NCBI GenBank assembly: GCA_905203195.1
Contig: CAJKVD010000004.1
Location: forward strand, 1 to 12,583
Source of the DNA: an uncultured Clostridium sp.
GTDB taxonomy: Bacteria; Bacillota; Clostridia; TANB77; CAG-508
Direction of reading: 5' to 3'
DNA length: 12,583 nucleotides
The first letter of the stretch is position 1; each line of letters begins with the position of its first letter. Shown here one piece after another: positions 481 through 6,598 of this stretch. The notes under the pieces are model-generated. The model had not been told where the DNA came from, ran no database searches, and was given only the letters and a program-made list of their open reading frames with translations. Made by a program: the position numbers and the translations under genes.

Positions 481-726
481 ATGAATGAAAGTTTTAGTGA
501 AGAACTTAAGAAGGAATTAGTAAAACAAGCTATAAAAAGCTTAGATGACCCATTTAAAATGCTAACTGTAAAAGATGTAGCAAAAGATCTATATATGGGA
601 GAAAACAAAACAAACGAAATATTTAATCGTGCAGATTTCCCATCTGTTAATATAGGCAAAACTAGAAAAATACAAAAGATAGCCTATATTTTATGGAAGA
701 TGGAAAAAAGGATTGATGTTATATGA
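481..726 (+). CDS. Small excisionase-like helix-turn-helix protein
   Basis: An 81-residue protein, first in the rightward operon. Residues 28-75 (LTVKDVAKDLYMGENKTNEI, then FPSVNIGKTRKI) fit a compact winged-HTH/MerR-like excisionase fold: helix VKDVAKDLYMG, recognition helix NKTNEIFNR, then a wing with GKTRKI. Proteins of this kind and size commonly act with tyrosine integrases, or as regulators, in ICEs and prophages. The start is supported by AAGGAGGA at 466-473. Its stop overlaps the next ATG (ATGA at 723-726), suggesting translational coupling to the following small ORF. It lies directly under the operator-controlled promoter, as expected for a gene that must be off during quiescence. 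The role as Xis is inferred; a copy-control or transcription-factor role is equally possible. Confidence 0.75.
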   Translation: MNESFSEELKKELVKQAIKSLDDPFKMLTVKDVAKDLYMGENKTNEIFNRADFPSVNIGKTRKIQKIAYILWKMEKRIDVI

Positions 727-938
727 GAAATATAAAAAGCATTTATACAAAAGCACACTTTGGCGAGCAGACTTTTGCACAAATGCCACATAAAGATATT
801 CGCAATCTTTATAAGAATAGTATATCATTTTTCCTTATATTTAACAATAGAAAATTAAGTAGAAATACTAGAAAGCGAGTAAAATATGGAAAAAACAAAG
901 AGATATTATTGGATAAAATTAAAAACAGATTTCTTTAA
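723..938 (+). CDS. Possible small hypothetical protein, perhaps a remnant
   Basis: A 71-codon frame begins at an ATG overlapping the stop of the excisionase-like gene (ATGA), so its start could be translationally coupled. The sequence (MRNIKSIYTKAHFGEQTFAQ onward) is basic, with many Lys and Arg, and resembles no family I recognise. Its last 53 nt overlap the start of the replisome-organizer gene in another frame, and that part reads like a shadow. If it is not coding, the stretch 727-885 is simply intergenic. No independent Shine-Dalgarno is visible. Treat it as a weak call: a short real gene, the decayed 5' end of a longer one, or noise. Confidence 0.3.
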   Translation: MRNIKSIYTKAHFGEQTFAQMPHKDIRNLYKNSISFFLIFNNRKLSRNTRKRVKYGKNKEILLDKIKNRFL

Positions 939-1689
939 TTTAGCTGAAATAGATTTTTTATTATCACAAAAAGATGGTTGTCAATATATAGTTTTATACC
1001 AAATGCTATGTTTACAAACTGCTAATAATAATGGTGAATTAGCATCAAGAGTTGGAGAAATGATTATTCCATATGATCCAGATAAGATAGCAAGAGATAC
1101 TAAATATTTTAGTAAAGATACTGTTATTGTAGCTATGGAATTATTTAAAAAACTAAATTTAATATATACAGATGATGGAATTTGCTTAAAAATAGCAGGA
1201 TTTGAAAATATGGTAGGTAGTGAAACTGGTTGGGCAAAACAAAAAAGAGAACAGAGAGAAAAGCAAAAATTATTAAGTGGACAATGTCCACCAAATAGTC
1301 CACAAGAGATAGATATAGATAAAGAGTTAGATATAGAGATAGATGAAGATATAGAAAGTGATGGATTGAATGATAGATTAAAGTTAATTAATTTAAAATT
1401 AAATAAAGCAAAGCTAGTTCAAGAGGAAACAACAGAATACAATGCGATTTTCAATCAAAAGAAAATATATATTCAAAACACAGAATATTTACCAGAAAAT
1501 CTATTAACACAAATAAAATTATATCAATCAGCAATCAAAAGATTATATGATAATAAACAAGCTGAATTATTAGAAAAAGTTACTTTACCAATACTAGAGA
1601 AAGTATTTGGTAATATCTTAAAAAATAAAAATATTGAAAACATAATAGAATATTATATTTCAAGTTTGGTTAATGAACTTGCAAAATAG
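886..1689 (+). CDS. Phage-type replisome organizer / replication initiation protein
   Basis: A 267-residue protein whose N-terminus (MEKTKRYYWIKLKTDFFNLA, residues 1-20, through about 125) matches the phage replisome organizer N-terminal domain (Rep_org_N): the opening 'K-RYYW-KLK-DFF' strand/helix, the 'YIVLYQMLCLQT' helix and the 'KKLNLIYTDDG' wing. A very acidic linker (EIDIDKELDIEIDEDIESD, about 141-159) leads to a helical C-terminal domain (160-267). Family members bind the origin and recruit the helicase loader or helicase in phages; an IME would use it to replicate its excised circle. The ribosome site is weak (GAAAGCGAG at about 871-879). It sits 12 nt before the integrase gene, so initiation and recombination are probably co-transcribed. 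No helicase loader is seen nearby. The DNA for the linker carries repeats suggestive of an origin (separate entry). Confidence 0.85.
   Translation: MEKTKRYYWIKLKTDFFNLAEIDFLLSQKDGCQYIVLYQMLCLQTANNNGELASRVGEMIIPYDPDKIARDTKYFSKDTVIVAMELFKKLNLIYTDDGICLKIAGFENMVGSETGWAKQKREQREKQKLLSGQCPPNSPQEIDIDKELDIEIDEDIESDGLNDRLKLINLKLNKAKLVQEETTEYNAIFNQKKIYIQNTEYLPENLLTQIKLYQSAIKRLYDNKQAELLEKVTLPILEKVFGNILKNKNIENIIEYYISSLVNELAK
1277..1356. other. Candidate replication origin inside the initiator gene
   Basis: GTGGAC (1277-1282), AAT, GTCCAC (1286-1291) is a perfect inverted repeat, followed by a third GTCCAC half-site (1298-1303) starting 12 bp after the second. Directly downstream, 1307-1356 is a run of AT-rich GATATA/GAGATA-type near-repeats that could melt easily. 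Lambda O and SPP1 gp38 are established cases of an origin lying within the initiator's own gene. Here the role is inferred only from repeats and location. Confidence 0.35.
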
Positions 1690-1701: not shown

Positions 1702-2880
1702 ATGAAGAAAAAAAGAAGAAGAGGAAATGGCGAAGGTACAATATTTGAAGATAAGAAAAATAAAAGATGGATAGGTCAATACATATCAGGAATATCTTCA
1801 GAAGGAAAAGCTATTAGAAAATCAGTATATGGAAAAACTCAAAAAGAGGTTTTAAATAAATTAAATGAGATTAAATATAAAATGAATAATGATATGTATG
1901 TAGAGAAAAATGGAATTGAATTAGTAAAAATAATGGAGGATATAAGACAAGAAAAACTTGCGTCAAATACAATTTCTGGTGGTCAATATGCTAGATTAAA
2001 ATGGACTATCAATAAAATTAAAAATAGCAAAATTGGAAATATGAAAATACAAGATATAACAAAAGATGATATTCAAGAATTTTTAAATTCTGTAAAAGAT
2101 TTAAGTGATTCATATATTAAGAAACTTTATGAACAATTTGTACAAGCATATCATAGAGCAGAAATCAAAAAATACATTTCTTATAACCCAATGTATGAAG
2201 TTATAAAACCAAAAAGTAATAAGCAAACTAAAGTTGTGGAAGCTTTAGAAATTAATGTACAAAAGGAATTTACACAATATTTAAATAAAGTTTCAATAGA
2301 AGAACAACCATATAAAAATATATTTTTAATCCAAATGTATATGGGACTTCGAATTGGAGAAGTGTTGGCATTAAGCAAAGAACATATTGATTTAAAAAAT
2401 AAAGTTTTATATGTTAAGAGGACACTCACAAATGACAAAGAATTTGCAATTATTTTAGGAAATAAGACAAAAACATATTCAGGTAATAGAACTTTACCTA
2501 TACCAGAATTTATAGTACCTATTTTTGAAGAACAACTAAAATATACAAATGAAAATTTGCACAATTTAATATTTACAAATAATAATAGTTATATAAGAAC
2601 ATCTGCAATTAATAAAGAGCTAAAAAGAATTTTCAAAGAGGAATTAAATGTAAATTCTAAAAATATTAGTACACATTGTTTAAGACACACTTATGGAACA
2701 AGATGTATTGAAGCAGGAATGACAGCAGTCGTTTTGCAAAGATTAATGGGACACAAAGATGTAACTGTAACTTTAAATACATACACATCTGTGTTCAATA
2801 GATTTAAAGAAGATGAACTTGAAAAAGTAAATACTTATTTAAATAATAATCAATTAAATTTTGTAAATAACAGTAATTAA
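1702..2880 (+). CDS. int: Tyrosine site-specific integrase of the element
   Basis: A 392-residue phage/ICE-type integrase. Residues about 7-57 (RGNGEGTIFEDKKNKRWIGQ and on) form the arm-type DNA-binding domain, about 70-165 the SAM-like core-binding domain, and 185-375 the catalytic domain. The catalytic set is visible and complete: R217 (GLRIGE), K257 (KTYSGNRTLPI), H325-x-x-R328 (HCLRHTYG), H351 (MGHKD) and nucleophile Y361 (NTYTSV). It should integrate and excise the element between attP and attB. The start has GGAGG at 1689-1693. The gene follows the replication gene by 12 nt and precedes the candidate oriT and mob genes. It therefore lies inside the element rather than at an end, which is unusual for tRNA-targeting integrases. 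Family certainty is high; the target site is inferred. Confidence 0.95.
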   Translation: MKKKRRRGNGEGTIFEDKKNKRWIGQYISGISSEGKAIRKSVYGKTQKEVLNKLNEIKYKMNNDMYVEKNGIELVKIMEDIRQEKLASNTISGGQYARLKWTINKIKNSKIGNMKIQDITKDDIQEFLNSVKDLSDSYIKKLYEQFVQAYHRAEIKKYISYNPMYEVIKPKSNKQTKVVEALEINVQKEFTQYLNKVSIEEQPYKNIFLIQMYMGLRIGEVLALSKEHIDLKNKVLYVKRTLTNDKEFAIILGNKTKTYSGNRTLPIPEFIVPIFEEQLKYTNENLHNLIFTNNNSYIRTSAINKELKRIFKEELNVNSKNISTHCLRHTYGTRCIEAGMTAVVLQRLMGHKDVTVTLNTYTSVFNRFKEDELEKVNTYLNNNQLNFVNNSN

Positions 2881-3006: not shown

Positions 3007-3315
3007 ATGCCCAAAGATAAAAAAATAAATATACGATTAACAGAAAAAGAAAAAAGCATAATTGAATCAAAAGCAAAGAAATGTAATATGACAATTACAA
3101 AATTTATTGTAAGTTCTTGTTTAAAAGATAAAATTATTATTGTAAATGGATTAGATAAAGTAGATGTAGAACTTAGAAGAATAGGAAATAATATAAATCA
3201 GTTAACAAGACTCGCAAATGAAAAAATAATTACAGTAGTTGACTTGAAAGAACTGCGAATGGAAGTGAATAACATATGGCAATTATTGAAGCAATTAGTT
3301 CAAAAGCAAATTTAA
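3007..3315 (+). CDS. mobC: MobC-family relaxosome accessory protein
   Basis: A 102-residue basic protein. Residues 7-39 (INIRLTEKEKSIIESKAKKC and on) look like a ribbon-helix-helix DNA-binding unit. Residues 54-71 (VELRRIGNNINQLTRLAN) are the hallmark of the bacterial mobilization MobC family, which binds oriT and helps the relaxase reach the nick site. AGGAGG (2995-3000) precedes the ATG with good spacing. Its last 40 nt overlap the relaxase start in another frame, a common arrangement that couples accessory protein and relaxase synthesis. It lies directly downstream of the candidate oriT, its presumed binding site. Family assignment is by motif and context, and fairly secure. Confidence 0.9.
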   Translation: MPKDKKINIRLTEKEKSIIESKAKKCNMTITKFIVSSCLKDKIIIVNGLDKVDVELRRIGNNINQLTRLANEKIITVVDLKELRMEVNNIWQLLKQLVQKQI

Positions 3316-4511
3316 AAACAATTATAAATTATGTTACGCAAGACAAGAAAACAAATGCTAATTTGATAACAGGGAAAGATTGCTTAGCTGAAAGTAGTTT
3401 AGAAGAAATGTTATATACAAAAGAATTATATAACAAGAATAATGGCAGACAGTATATTCATATTATTCAATCATTTGACCCAAAAGATAATTTATCTGCA
3501 GAGCAAGTTCATAATACAGGTATTAGATTAGCAGAAAAATTCAATGGATACCAGGTATTAGTCGCAACACATATTGATAAAAAACATTTGCATAACCATT
3601 TAGTTGTAAATTCAGTTTCATTTGAAAATGGATATAAAATACAAATGAGTAAAAAGAATTTACAAGATTTAAAAGATTATTCAGACAAGTTGTGTTTGGA
3701 AATAGGAGCTTCAGTTATACCTAAAAAAGAAAACACACAATACATAAAAAGAAATGAATACAGAGTTGCTGAACAAGGTAAGAGTTGGAAATTTAAACTA
3801 ATAAATGCAATTGATTTATCTCTAGCAGAAAGTAGTAACAAACAGGAATTTATAAAATCAATGAACAAGTTAGGTTATCAAGTTAATTGGACTGATACTA
3901 GAAAATATATTACATATACAACACCTGAAGGCTATAAATGTAGAGATAATAAATTATATGAAGAAAAATATACAAAAGGAGTAATGGAAAATGAATTTAG
4001 AAGAATTAAAGAAGAACAATCAAATAGTACAAGACAGTCAAGTAATTCCATCAATAGTAAAGATGAATTATTATCTATTAGAACCAGAGATAATAAAGGA
4101 TTTATATCAAATGGAACAAGCAATAGTAGAAGATATTACAATTATGAAAAAGAAAGTTCAAGATACACAGGAATGTTTATTAAAGGACAATATAAGAATG
4201 AACGAGGAAATGAAGAAATTAGTAGAGGAAAAAGCGAAAGATCAATTTTACAATTTGAAACGAGAATTGAAACAAACGGAAGAAGAACAGAAAAGCAAAA
4301 TTTCCAAAATAAAATGGAAAACGGGGTTAGTAACATTCTTGGTGGGATTATTGCTATCAGCAATATGGTTTCTAACTCACAAGTAAATAATAGACCTAAA
4401 CGAAGAATTAGAAGATATAGAACTTTATCAAAACAAGCTATGAAAGAATATGCAATGAAGAAAGCTAATTCTAGTAGTTTTGATTGGTATGAAGATGAGG
4501 AAGAAATGTAA
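3276..4511 (+). CDS. MobA/VirD2-type relaxase (mobilization nuclease)
   Basis: A 411-residue relaxase of the Relaxase/MobP class (PF03432 type). Motif I has the likely catalytic tyrosine Y19 in INYVTQDKKT. Motif II-like IHIIQSF is at 61-67. Motif III, the metal-binding histidine cluster, is H99-x-D101-x-x-H104-x-H106-N-H108. The enzyme should nick one strand at oriT, stay covalently attached through Y19 and pilot the strand into a recipient via another element's conjugation machinery. The N-terminal 235 or so residues are well structured. Residues 239-370 are low-complexity and rich in Ser, Asn, Arg and Glu, exactly where a second gene runs in another frame. The C-terminus has a basic patch (RPKRRIRRYR) and an acidic end (YEDEEEM). 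It starts inside mobC. No coupling protein follows, so the element appears mobilizable rather than self-transmissible within what is visible. Confidence 0.93.
   Translation: MAIIEAISSKANLKTIINYVTQDKKTNANLITGKDCLAESSLEEMLYTKELYNKNNGRQYIHIIQSFDPKDNLSAEQVHNTGIRLAEKFNGYQVLVATHIDKKHLHNHLVVNSVSFENGYKIQMSKKNLQDLKDYSDKLCLEIGASVIPKKENTQYIKRNEYRVAEQGKSWKFKLINAIDLSLAESSNKQEFIKSMNKLGYQVNWTDTRKYITYTTPEGYKCRDNKLYEEKYTKGVMENEFRRIKEEQSNSTRQSSNSINSKDELLSIRTRDNKGFISNGTSNSRRYYNYEKESSRYTGMFIKGQYKNERGNEEISRGKSERSILQFETRIETNGRRTEKQNFQNKMENGVSNILGGIIAISNMVSNSQVNNRPKRRIRRYRTLSKQAMKEYAMKKANSSSFDWYEDEEEM
3991..4386 (+). CDS. Overlapping gene within the relaxase gene: coiled-coil protein with C-terminal membrane anchor
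   Basis: A 131-residue frame lies wholly within the relaxase gene, shifted by one. AAAAGGAG (3974-3981) stands 9 nt before its ATG, a better ribosome site than many genes here. The product is soluble and helical through about residue 105, with a Glu/Lys-rich, probably coiled-coil stretch (about 55-108, including MNEEMKKLVEEKAKDQ and RELKQTEEEQ). It ends with one clear membrane helix (TGLVTFLVGLLLSAIWFL, 111-128) and a short THK tail: a tail-anchored or type-II-like topology. The host frame encodes low-complexity protein over the same bases, as expected if this frame carries the constraint. Nested mob genes are established elsewhere (mobB in mobA of RSF1010; mobB and mobD within mobA of ColE1-type plasmids). 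The role, perhaps anchoring the relaxosome at the membrane, is inferred. It could still be a chance frame. Confidence 0.6.
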   Translation: MNLEELKKNNQIVQDSQVIPSIVKMNYYLLEPEIIKDLYQMEQAIVEDITIMKKKVQDTQECLLKDNIRMNEEMKKLVEEKAKDQFYNLKRELKQTEEEQKSKISKIKWKTGLVTFLVGLLLSAIWFLTHK

Positions 4512-4568
4512 TAAATTTATAAAAAATTAGAAGCATATATTTTTTTATTTTATTTTAAATTTAAATGC

Positions 4569-4597
4569 TTGATATTACATAAGTGATATGATAAAAT
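4569..4597 (+). promoter_or_regulatory. Weak candidate promoter for the zincin-like gene
   Basis: TTGATA (4569-4574), 17 nt, TAAAAT (4592-4597), in the 181-nt gap between the relaxase stop and the next start. The same gap has a loose AAGCAT/ATGCTT inverted repeat (4531-4536, 4565-4570) around a T-rich stretch that could weakly terminate the mob transcript. In such AT-rich DNA both are low-specificity matches. Confidence 0.3.
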
Positions 4598-4692
4598 TTC
4601 TATGGAAATATTAAATATAATTCTGCAAGAAATAAGTAAATTGATATTTTTTGAAAGGGAACAAAAGAATAAAAGGAAAAGGAGTTAAATAC

Positions 4693-5928
4693 ATGGGATT
4701 TTATTGTAAAGAAGACCAGTTACAGTTTGAAAAGAGTTATGTAGAAATATTAAAATTATTTGGAGAAGGAAATAAAAGTATAATAACAGCTTTTAATAAT
4801 AGATTAAAAGAGGTTAATACATATCCAGGTGAATATTCAGATAGCGATGTAAACTCTGTTACACCTGGAAAGACTGGTTATGAGAATAATCCTAATAGTA
4901 GAATATATATAAAATTAATAGGTTTTGATAGAAGTAGTTGCTCTAAAGCTCAAACCCAACATTACTTTAGCCATGAAACTAGTCATGCTTTTTCAGTTGC
5001 TGCACAGGATGTATTTTCAAATAGACAAAGAGCGGGAATTGGTAATTATAATATTCCTTATTTTTATACTACAAGGATTGGAAATTCCGAGTATCTAGGA
5101 ATAAGTGGAAGTATTTACAAGAAATTGCAACCTAATGAAATAGAAAATGTAATATATGGAGGGGGATTTTGTGAGGTAATGACAGATTTATTTGCGGTAG
5201 CATCCAGGGTTGCATCAAGTCCAGATATGAAAAATCAAGGAATAACTGTTGATACAGTCTTAAAAAAACCAAACAAAGAATGGAATAAAGAAAGAATAAT
5301 ATCAGGATATTTTGCAAGTATGCCACTTGCAAGGTTAGCGATTGCAGCGTTTTCTAATTATCCTAATCCACAATATCAACATATATTGAACACAGGTGGA
5401 AGCATTTTTTCAACCATGCGAACTGATACAAATGCAGAAGTGCATATAAATGATTTTATTTATGGAAGTATGTGTGATCCGTTATATATTGCAGAGGAAT
5501 ATAATAAAATAGCTGGACAACCTGGAGCTTATTTTAAACTTTGTCAGCCAATGGACAAAATAGTAGACGATTATGCTTATAAAAGACCAGTAGACAATAA
5601 GGATATACAGTTTGTTATACAACAATTAAGTAAATTTGCAAAACTTAGAACCATGATAAAAGTTCAAGAAGGTGTATTTACACAGGAATATGCTGATAAA
5701 ATATATGAAGAATTTGAAAAAGTCAAAAGTGATGTTGAAAGAGAATATGGACTTTCAGATAAGTATCAACAAATAAGTAATCAAAATCCTCAGATAACTC
5801 CTACAGTGATTGCTGAAACAAGTAAAAATGCAATAAATGAAAATCCTGGCATAGTAGCAGAAAAAGTAAATAAATCGCACAATATATTTAAGTTACTTAA
5901 TAGAAATAAAGATGATAAGAGGAGATAA
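4693..5928 (+). CDS. Unrecognised zincin-like (HExxH) protein of the mobile element
   Basis: A 411-residue protein that I cannot assign to a named family. It contains HETSH (H94-E95-x-x-H98) in HYFSHETSHAFSVAAQD, the zinc-binding HExxH signature of metallopeptidases. A later conserved-looking GGGFCEVMTDLF puts E161 or D165 in position for a third ligand, as in gluzincins, where a downstream helix supplies Glu. No signal peptide or membrane helix is seen, so it appears cytoplasmic or exported by another route. The C-terminal 60 residues are polar and probably disordered, ending in basic KLLNRNKDDKRR. The ATG at 4693 is chosen because AAAAGGAG (4677-4684) lies 8 nt before it; the frame is open back to a TTG at 4651 with no good ribosome site. 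It is followed 9 nt later by a small gene, probably co-transcribed. Peptidase activity is inferred from the motif only; an inactive zincin fold is possible. Confidence 0.7.
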   Translation: MGFYCKEDQLQFEKSYVEILKLFGEGNKSIITAFNNRLKEVNTYPGEYSDSDVNSVTPGKTGYENNPNSRIYIKLIGFDRSSCSKAQTQHYFSHETSHAFSVAAQDVFSNRQRAGIGNYNIPYFYTTRIGNSEYLGISGSIYKKLQPNEIENVIYGGGFCEVMTDLFAVASRVASSPDMKNQGITVDTVLKKPNKEWNKERIISGYFASMPLARLAIAAFSNYPNPQYQHILNTGGSIFSTMRTDTNAEVHINDFIYGSMCDPLYIAEEYNKIAGQPGAYFKLCQPMDKIVDDYAYKRPVDNKDIQFVIQQLSKFAKLRTMIKVQEGVFTQEYADKIYEEFEKVKSDVEREYGLSDKYQQISNQNPQITPTVIAETSKNAINENPGIVAEKVNKSHNIFKLLNRNKDDKRR

Positions 5929-5937
5929 TCGTTATAT

Positions 5938-6366
5938 ATGGAAGAAATAAATAAAAGATTGGTAGAAGTAGACTATATATTGAAAAAGTTAGACAATAAA
6001 TATATAAATAAAATTCCACAAGAAGTATGGGATTACATTACTGAAAACAAAGATAAAAATTATGTTTTTAAATATGATGATGACAAAACACTAGCTGAAC
6101 AGAATTTAAGTATAGACACTATTTCAATTTTAACATATATAAATATGGAATATTTGCTGGAAGAAGAATCAAAAAGAGAATTATTAACACTATTAAAGAA
6201 TGATGAGATGATTGCTGAACAGAAAAAAAGGAAGAAATATAATCCAGATGATTTATTTAAAAATAAAAAAGCAGAGCAAAAAGAACAAGTTTCTTTGGTA
6301 GAAGTAAAAATTGAAAAATGGTATGAGAAATTGTTTTCATTTTTAAAAAATATGTTTAGAAAATAA
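5938..6366 (+). CDS. Small hypothetical protein, partner of the zincin-like gene
   Basis: A 142-residue protein resembling, from memory, a widespread uncharacterised family in uncultured Clostridia. The pattern is KLDNKYINKIPQEVWDYITE, then a conserved-looking 'EQNLS-DT-SILTYI--EYLL' segment (about 54-74), then a Lys-rich linker with KYNPDDLFKNK (about 99-109). The last 20 residues (about 123-142) could form a basic amphipathic helix (KWYEKLFSFLKNMFRK). There are no catalytic motifs, signal peptide or full membrane helix. AAGAGGAG (5917-5924) is 13 nt upstream of the ATG, a rather long spacing. It is the last gene before the tRNA-Pro end of the element and almost certainly shares a transcript with the zincin-like gene. 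Function unknown; a regulator, inhibitor or membrane-tethering partner of its neighbour are all guesses. Confidence 0.7.
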   Translation: MEEINKRLVEVDYILKKLDNKYINKIPQEVWDYITENKDKNYVFKYDDDKTLAEQNLSIDTISILTYINMEYLLEEESKRELLTLLKNDEMIAEQKKRKKYNPDDLFKNKKAEQKEQVSLVEVKIEKWYEKLFSFLKNMFRK

Positions 6367-6368
6367 TC

Positions 6369-6422
6369 TGAATGCAGTTTTTACATTCAAATAGTGAAAC
6401 CTGAATGCAATAATGAATGCAG
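6369..6422. repeat. Three TGAATGCA direct repeats near the presumed element end
   Basis: TGAATGCAG (6369-6377), TGAATGCAA (6402-6410) and TGAATGCAG (6414-6422), plus a related inverted copy TTACATTCAA (6381-6390). Spaced short repeats between the last element gene and a tRNA 3' end are what arm-type integrase or excisionase sites look like, but no binding is demonstrated. Confidence 0.4.
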
Positions 6423-6522: not shown

Positions 6523-6545
6523 TGGTCGAGGTGACAGGGATCGAA
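6523..6545. other. Possible attachment site at the tRNA-Pro 3' end
   Basis: The 3' end of tRNA-Pro lies at the right border of the element-type genes, where tyrosine integrases often recombine while restoring the tRNA. No second copy of this sequence is visible elsewhere in the window. The call rests on position only; the partner repeat should lie left of base 1. Confidence 0.3.
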
Positions 6546-6598
6546 CCTGCGACCTCATGGTCCCAAACCACGCGCGCTACCAACTGCGCTACACCTCG
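6523..6598 (-). tRNA. tRNA-Pro (TGG anticodon)
   Basis: Complete cloverleaf on the minus strand, 76 nt with encoded CCA. The acceptor stem is CGAGGTG/CACCTCG with discriminator A, the anticodon loop is TTTGGGA (anticodon TGG), and the T arm reads GCAGGTTCGATCCCTGT. The encoded CCA is at 6525-6523. Its 3' end points toward the mobile element, making it a plausible integration target. A familiar spurious protein frame (GVAQLVARVVWDHEVAG) crosses this gene. Confidence 0.96.

Follow-up and report, generated by a model that had tools for sequence, protein, structure and literature searches.

Does a relaxase gene in an uncultured Clostridium sp. hold a second gene within it, and what would the product of that gene do? 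Many small mobile elements do not themselves encode a secretion system, and the route by which a Gram-positive relaxosome reaches a helper channel is poorly known. A conserved membrane partner hidden in a relaxase gene would be a specific candidate for reaching that channel, and would define a family to search for. The locus lies in what we call the window, the whole 12,583-nucleotide stretch of contig CAJKVD010000004.1 analyzed here. A sequence-only reading of the window had proposed a 131-codon frame (3991 to 4386) inside the relaxase gene in another frame, with a Shine-Dalgarno-like sequence 9 nt before its ATG and a product made of a Glu/Lys-rich helix and one C-terminal membrane helix. 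The coordinates and length proved exact, the Shine-Dalgarno-like sequence is present, and the product is predicted to have that architecture (Table 1; see below).

Table 1. Features of the window and of mobB-type genes in related plasmid records.
Feature	Record	Positions	Strand	Basis or remark
Small, possibly HTH, protein	Window	481-726	+	Weak match (E=0.001) to PHROG 668 "HTH DNA binding protein"
Phage-type replisome organizer	Window	886-1689	+	Pfam Phage_rep_org_N 2.8e-11; PHROG 5968 2.7e-37
Tyrosine integrase	Window	1702-2880	+	Pfam Phage_integrase 3.5e-24
mobC/nikA-type relaxosome protein, 102 aa	Window	3007-3315	+	Pfam NikA-like 1e-20, MobC 4.7e-12
MOBP-type relaxase (mobA), 411 aa	Window	3276-4511	+	Pfam Relaxase PF03432 6.9e-34, residues 19-144
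Relaxase nuclease domain, residues 19-144	Window	3330-3707	+	Pfam
Shine-Dalgarno-like AAAAGGAG	Window	3974-3981	+	Sequence; ends 9 nt upstream of nested ATG
Predicted nested mobB-type gene	Window	3991-4386	+	131 aa, +1 frame of relaxase gene 3276-4511
Conserved N-terminal peptide MNLEELKKNNQ, nested product	Window	3991-4023	+	Alignments
Predicted long charged helix, nested product residues 32-110	Window	4084-4320	+	AlphaFold2
Predicted C-terminal membrane helix, nested product residues 111-129	Window	4321-4377	+	Hydropathy, conservation
Relaxase C-terminal tail after nested stop	Window	4386-4508	+	Variable sites, conserved blocks
Cargo ORF, 411 aa	Window	4693-5928		HETSH (HExxH-like) stretch
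Probable right attachment core TGGTCGAGGTGA, equal to tRNA-Pro 3' end	Window	6523-6534	.	Homology ends, tRNA
tRNA-Pro gene	Window	6523-6598	-	Element's right end falls in its 3' end
mobB-type gene	L021	3710-4492		Listed with late start
mobB-type gene	L077	2207-2650		Listed with late start
mobB-type gene	L080	2132-2938		Listed with late start
mobB-type gene	L083	2216-2785		Listed with late start
mobB-type gene	L017	3417-3992		Unlisted

The host gene fits the MOBP class of relaxases. Besides its PF03432 match it has a MobC partner and an H-x-D-x-x-H-x-H-x-H motif, whose residues H99, D101, H104, H106, and H108 are invariant across 15 relaxases, and its relatives are typed MOBP in PLSDB. The mobC/nikA-type gene and the start of the relaxase gene share 40 nt. 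Homologues of the relaxase occur in 1392 plasmid records, none of them reaching 60% identity.

Taken alone, the nested ORF is of only moderately surprising length. A +1 frame open over 133 codons was reached in 2 of 20,000 codon-order permutations but in 959 of 20,000 synonymous permutations, and the exact interval 3991 to 4386 was still open in 69 of 20,000 permutations. The membrane helix alone is likewise weak evidence, as hydropathy of at least 1.6 arose in 385 of 2,000 synonymous permutations of the window's interval. Across 12 nested relaxases, the run stayed open in 0 to 1564 of 2,000 synonymous permutations and hydropathy reached at least 1.6 in 112 to 1115. The 959 permutations with the open length and the range for hydropathy are what speaks for regarding the frame as untranslated, a by-product of the codons that the relaxase uses in an AT-rich linker of low complexity. 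Since length and hydropathy are insufficient by themselves, the case for the nested gene rests on comparison.

We compared variable sites by codon position in eight relaxases (the window, L001, L003, L004, L005, L007, L008, and L009). Before the overlap (238 codons), 53, 22, and 117 variable sites fall at relaxase codon positions 1, 2, and 3; inside it (130 codons) the counts are 72, 65, and 38, and after it (40 codons) they are 7, 6, and 16. The inversion is confined to the overlap, and the relaxase tail behind the nested stop is again constrained as relaxase. Because the nested wobble base coincides with relaxase position 1, the nested protein is, inside the overlap, more constrained than the relaxase, and over these bases the relaxase frame evolves faster than the nested frame. 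Synonymous variation of the relaxase, for which constraint had been anticipated over the overlap, is indeed lowered there rather than normal in these eight relaxases.

Silent changes in six pairs of sequences point the same way. Changes silent only in the nested frame number 92, against 39 silent only in the relaxase (p=4.7e-7). The null expects 51.3% relaxase-only-silent changes if the relaxase frame is neutral and the nested frame absent, and is conservative because relaxase constraint would raise that share. All six pairs show the codon-position inversion; taken singly, the excess of nested-silent changes is significant for window/L001 (p=0.018), L003/L005 (p=0.0074), L007/L009 (p=0.0063), and L017/L083 (p=0.011), and not significant alone for L034/L055 (p=0.20) and L021/L080 (p=0.25). 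Further, in L006/L029 the relaxase frame carries one TAG while the nested frame is intact at 131 aa. Taken together, the comparisons show a nested frame that behaves as a protein under purifying selection.

Relatives were drawn from genome collections (13 loci) and from plasmid and phage records. Relaxase matches were found in 113 of 287 genomes of one order (E<=1e-20), 28 of 398 genomes of the phylum, and 118 of 391 genomes of the class (both E<=1e-30), with only the best fetched; viral contigs scanned with the relaxase alignment gave no match. A rule demanding ATG was applied to 126 loci that have a relaxase ORF, some of them duplicates; it sorted 37 as nested, 7 as overlapping, and 80 as without the frame, with one more cut at a record end and one lacking the membrane helix. 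This set was reduced to 69 distinct relaxases with a score of at least 255, in which ATG, GTG, and TTG starts were allowed. In 30 of the 69, a +1 frame that spans at least 90 codons and encodes a membrane helix starts exactly five codons after a conserved Lys (Lys+5), a figure that is not a prevalence, the relaxases having been gathered with bearer-rich queries and best matches only. The frame lies inside the relaxase in 25 of these bearers and runs past its stop in 5, which include Staphylococcus and Enterococcus plasmids. The window's ATG is at this very place, five codons after Lys234.

The start codon is ATG in 27 bearers, TTG in 2, and GTG in 1; the ATG-only rule had missed L087, L092, and L118, which bear the frame with TTG or GTG at Lys+5. 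The relaxase residue that bears the start varies among the 30, being N, D, Y, or H (NAT then G), L (CTT-G), or R (CGT-G), so it is the start codon and not the amino acid that is conserved. A separate table of start sites was drawn from loci picked as frame bearers. In three further relaxases the nested frame begins two or three codons farther on (L059, L128, and L129, the last two with GTG). The start is present in six others: the frame is cut by a contig or record end in L018, L076, and L130, and is short in L093, L127, and L131, L127 being interrupted by a stop. Read across the start of its circular record, L018 has an open frame of 236 codons that includes a strong hydrophobic stretch. No start in the +2 frame, at 41 offsets in the 69 relaxases, opens a product with a membrane helix. 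In the Lacticaseibacillus relaxase of L081, a nested +1 frame (2432-2770) begins at Lys+5 and has no membrane helix.

The choice of codons upstream of the start also separates the two groups. In the window, AAAAGGAG overlaps relaxase codons Lys234 (AAA) and Gly235 (GGA), and the mRNA near the nested start is almost unfolded (-1 kcal/mol). AAGGAG occurs upstream in 25 of 30 bearers versus 2 of 30 nonbearers, the latter being 30 of 33 rows scored "no start"; L059, L128, and L129 are left out of the comparison, as are L093, L127, L131, L018, L076, and L130. Among relaxases with Lys-Glu at this place, 18 of 18 bearers encode the pair as AAG-GAG, versus 2 of 22 nonbearers. These data show, at the level of sequence, that a large group of MOBP relaxases shares one fixed start site.

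Thirty of the 69 relaxases have no nested frame, indicating that the gene is not needed by every member. The sequence-only reading had named homologues without the frame, or with stops in it, and with normal synonymous variation across the region as evidence against it. The gene survives this comparison; most of the homologues lack the DNA for the frame as well, with 66 to 113 residues from Lys to the relaxase end in 26 of 30 (192, 427, 528, and 553 in the others) versus 178 to 268 in the 25 fully nested cases. In most cases the extra length of a bearer relaxase is roughly that of the nested gene. On a nuclease-domain tree the trait is patchy, as expected from repeated loss or exchange. The tree requires 10 bearer/nonbearer changes with ATG-only labels, probably too many because those labels missed the TTG and GTG bearers.

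A chance ORF, considered as a candidate explanation, was ruled out by the codon-position inversion, the excess of nested-silent changes, the fixed start, and the AAG-GAG choice. The inversion and the fixed start site, both obtained from comparison, are what chance does not explain, and on this comparative evidence we regard the nested gene as real.

The nested product is Glu/Lys-rich and has one strong hydrophobic stretch, at its C terminus, with a 19-residue hydropathy of 2.03 from residue 111; KIKWK precedes the membrane helix and HK follows it. AlphaFold2 models a single helix over residues 32 to 129, with a loose N-terminal part that includes a short helix at residues 3 to 9 (mean pLDDT, 83.4; pTM, 0.37; ten-residue pLDDT means of 85 to 96 over residues 31 to 110). 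The model is a lone helix from which no partner can be read. The predicted architecture is therefore an N-terminal peptide, a long helix, and a C-terminal membrane helix. Both ends of the product are conserved: M1, E4, K7, N10, G119, and H130 are invariant in an alignment of 14 nested products, and among 10 nested products the C-terminal region is strongly conserved and the middle divergent. LEELKQRN recurs near the N terminus of the otherwise dissimilar nested products of L087, L092, L128, and L129, close to LEELKKNN in the window, which suggests that the LEELK-type peptide is a short binding motif.

No Pfam or NCBIfam model reached its cut-off when the nested product and its relatives were scanned. 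Against PHROG the product gave only weak matches (best E-value, 0.098), which we took as coiled-coil noise and rejected as a family assignment, and a search of plasmids returned one weak match (E=0.1), within an annotated polyphosphate kinase gene.

In its position, frame, and architecture, the nested gene is of the mobB type. Staphylococcal and enterococcal MOBP plasmids (pVGA, pRJ6, pC101MK3, and a 6.3-kb E. faecium plasmid) have the order mobC-mobA-mobB with mobB in the +1 frame, as here. Their mobB starts at the same Lys+5 position in L021, L077, and L080, and with TTG in L018. This shared start opens a mobB overlapping the end of mobA in plasmids of S. aureus, S. epidermidis, and E. faecium. 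Its product, like the nested one, consists of a long helical-looking part followed by a membrane helix or helices, judged by hydropathy alone. Staphylococcal and enterococcal mobB nevertheless passes the mobA stop (148 to 269 aa in L021, L077, and L080), whereas the window's gene ends inside mobA and the window's relaxase, unlike theirs, resumes with a conserved tail. Profile alignment with hhalign of the nested products against five overlapping MobBs plus nested L014 and L015 gave a probability of 1.9%, and no homology was detected. We take pC221-type plasmids to belong with these staphylococcal mobB plasmids; mobilization of pC221 reportedly requires mobB.

Overlapping mobB genes were already known in Firmicutes. 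The arrangement had been thought unfamiliar for Firmicute MobP relaxases, an impression corrected by the Lys+5 +1 frames of Staphylococcus and Enterococcus plasmids. For a mobB fully nested in a Firmicute MOBP relaxase we found no description, in a literature search that was thin in subscription journals.

The sequence-only reading had also noted that ColE1 and RSF1010 nest mob genes in mobA, and both do. ColE1 MbeB lies inside the gene for the MOBP relaxase MbeA in the +1 frame, as the nested gene does, and is comparable to it in having a charged N-terminal part, a hydrophobic stretch (1.85), and AAAGGAG before its start. Unlike that of the nested gene, its start is apparently not at Lys+5, as read by eye without alignment. 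ColE1, a proteobacterial system, has a second nested gene, mbeD, after MbeB. MbeB matches MbeB_N (PF04837) at 3.6e-22, a model that found no match in the window's product (P0001) and the relatives scanned; hhalign of the nested products against MbeB gave a probability of 0.2%, with no homology detected. The MobB protein of RSF1010/R1162 has a membrane helix, and the transport signals of the R1162 relaxase reportedly require MobB. PMC2200642 places RSF1010 mobB within mobA in another reading frame, like the nested gene, and calls MobA, MobB, and MobC essential for mobilization. The RSF1010 relaxase is MOBQ, according to PMC12857230, whereas the window's relaxase is of the PF03432 type with MOBP relatives. 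For ColE-type mobA, PMC9282650 speaks of "internally encoded" MobB and MobD.

Other mob modules differ in how far the genes overlap. The lactococcal plasmids pLd2, pLd7, and pLd10 have a mobC-mobA-mobB module, as here, but according to PMC6098607 their mobB start merely overlaps the mobA stop. In the sole Lactococcus relaxase examined (L079), no nested frame encodes a membrane helix. In pKKS49, mobA, mobB, and mobC partly overlap, as stated in PMC6157413, and a Fusobacterium plasmid has a gene for a helical-looking membrane protein after mobA with no overlap.

We read the carrier of the module as an integrative and mobilizable element; its left end falls outside the window. Nine of 12 loci (L001 to L009) align with most of the window up to about 4510 to 4567; alignments of L003 to L005 are interrupted, those of L007 and L008 begin at 75 and 289 (contig starts), and L010, L011, and L012 align in part. 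Most loci then diverge from the window until about 6350 to 6385 and realign to 6534 or beyond. Homology to L002, L003, L006, L007, and L011 stops at 6534 to 6535, while the other loci continue into the tRNA. Elements akin to the window's (L001, L002, and L004) sit at a tRNA-Pro 3' end, and the core TGGTCGAGG occurs twice in L004, at 598 and 8422. Direct repeats at 453-470 and 4589-4606 were considered as element ends and dropped, as homology between elements continues to the tRNA-Pro end. L001 and L002 are two element copies on one contig, 9.6 kb apart. No coupling or secretion protein was found among the element ORFs scanned in the window. The cargo ORF, shared by L004 at 95% over this stretch, has no Pfam, NCBIfam, or PHROG match and is possibly a zinc metalloprotease.

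Several related loci have peculiarities of their own. In L011/L030 the relaxase frame is broken, with many stops across the match. L007, labeled Candidatus Gastranaerophilales, is very close to the Clostridia-labeled L008, through either a binning error or a recent transfer. In the database proteins P0010, P0012, P0013, P0027, and P0031, part of the nested product is fused to the integrase start, to the replisome organizer, or to a third sequence, which we presume to resemble tyrosyl-tRNA synthetase; these fusions are either deleted element copies or assembly joins.

We consider it fairly likely that this integrative and mobilizable element uses an internal +1 start in its relaxase gene to make a selected, membrane-anchored, mobB-type protein that tethers the relaxosome for a helper. 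The mob module would then be mobC-mobA with the mobB-type gene nested in mobA. Ribosomes translating the mobA message would also initiate internally. The site, AAAAGGAG, is built from the codons of the conserved Lys and the residue after it, and translation would begin five codons past this Lys in the +1 frame. One message would thereby yield both the relaxase and a 131-aa anchor. The anchor would sit in the cell membrane with its long helix in the cytoplasm; the positive KIKWK before the membrane helix, with only HK after it, suggests a tail anchor whose bulk is cytoplasmic. It may bind the relaxosome, through the relaxase or MobC, by way of its helix or the LEELK peptide, and would hold it close to a helper conjugative element's coupling protein. 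Being encoded together would keep the relaxase and its anchor in step and in cis. We infer that the product probably acts as a relaxosome membrane anchor that aids in using the conjugation machine of another element.

The main rival is a regulator of the relaxase, which would stabilize the relaxosome, restrain nicking, or govern mob expression, with the anchor secondary. Nesting gives co-expression with the relaxase, and R1162 MobB is said to stabilize the relaxosome and to stimulate transfer as distinct functions, both of which count toward a regulator. However, the membrane-helix region is among the best-conserved parts in the window's family, which points to a function in location, and regulation is compatible with the anchor model; as the primary role we hold it to be unlikely. 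An entry-exclusion or immunity protein, hindering entry of a second copy from the membrane, would also be a small membrane protein encoded within a mob gene, and the ColE1 gene for an "MbeD family mobilization/exclusion protein" is likewise inside mbeA. Yet MbeD lies downstream of MbeB and is not strongly hydrophobic in any stretch (0.06), and the two copies in L001/L002 argue against strong exclusion unless that contig is misassembled, leaving this role quite improbable. A role as the element's membrane toxin or lysis factor, although suggested by small size and one membrane helix flanked by positive residues, is very hard to reconcile with the long conserved helix and the strict mobA-internal position common to plasmid mobB genes. 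The untranslated by-product introduced above has next to no room left beside the inversion with its 92 versus 39 silent changes, the fixed NTG start, the synonymous AAG-GAG choice, and the intact nested frame of L006/L029.

Returning to the anchor, we lean toward a broader reading in which the internal +1 start is old and general in a large MOBP branch and the Lys-Glu/Gly codons serve as ribosome site. The anchor would have been swallowed whole in many Clostridia elements, where it would dictate a linker of about 100 residues, and would belong to a family with no above-cut-off match in the Pfam and NCBIfam libraries searched, one that annotation missed or truncated in all five loci checked. 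A portion of the relaxase C terminus would then be a linker that owes its shape to another protein, a point to bear in mind when relaxase domains are interpreted. Because the nested start can be abolished while the relaxase stays unaltered, the arrangement offers a clean genetic test.

Annotation had been expected to discard such a gene, and it does tend to miss or shorten it: the full frame is listed in none of the five annotated plasmid loci checked. The listed mobB gene starts 168 to 315 bases downstream of the Lys+5 start in L021, L077, L080, and L083, indicating that listed MobB starts can be wrong, and L017, a Waltera plasmid, has no mobB gene listed, in a plasmid gene table that is incomplete by its own description. 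L083 is the Campylobacter jejuni plasmid pCjH32, in which positions 1753-2785 hold a relaxase fragment without its N-terminal part together with the mobB-type frame. The mobB products of L083 and L017 are 82% identical, and the pCjH32 module looks like a clostridial mob module in Campylobacter.
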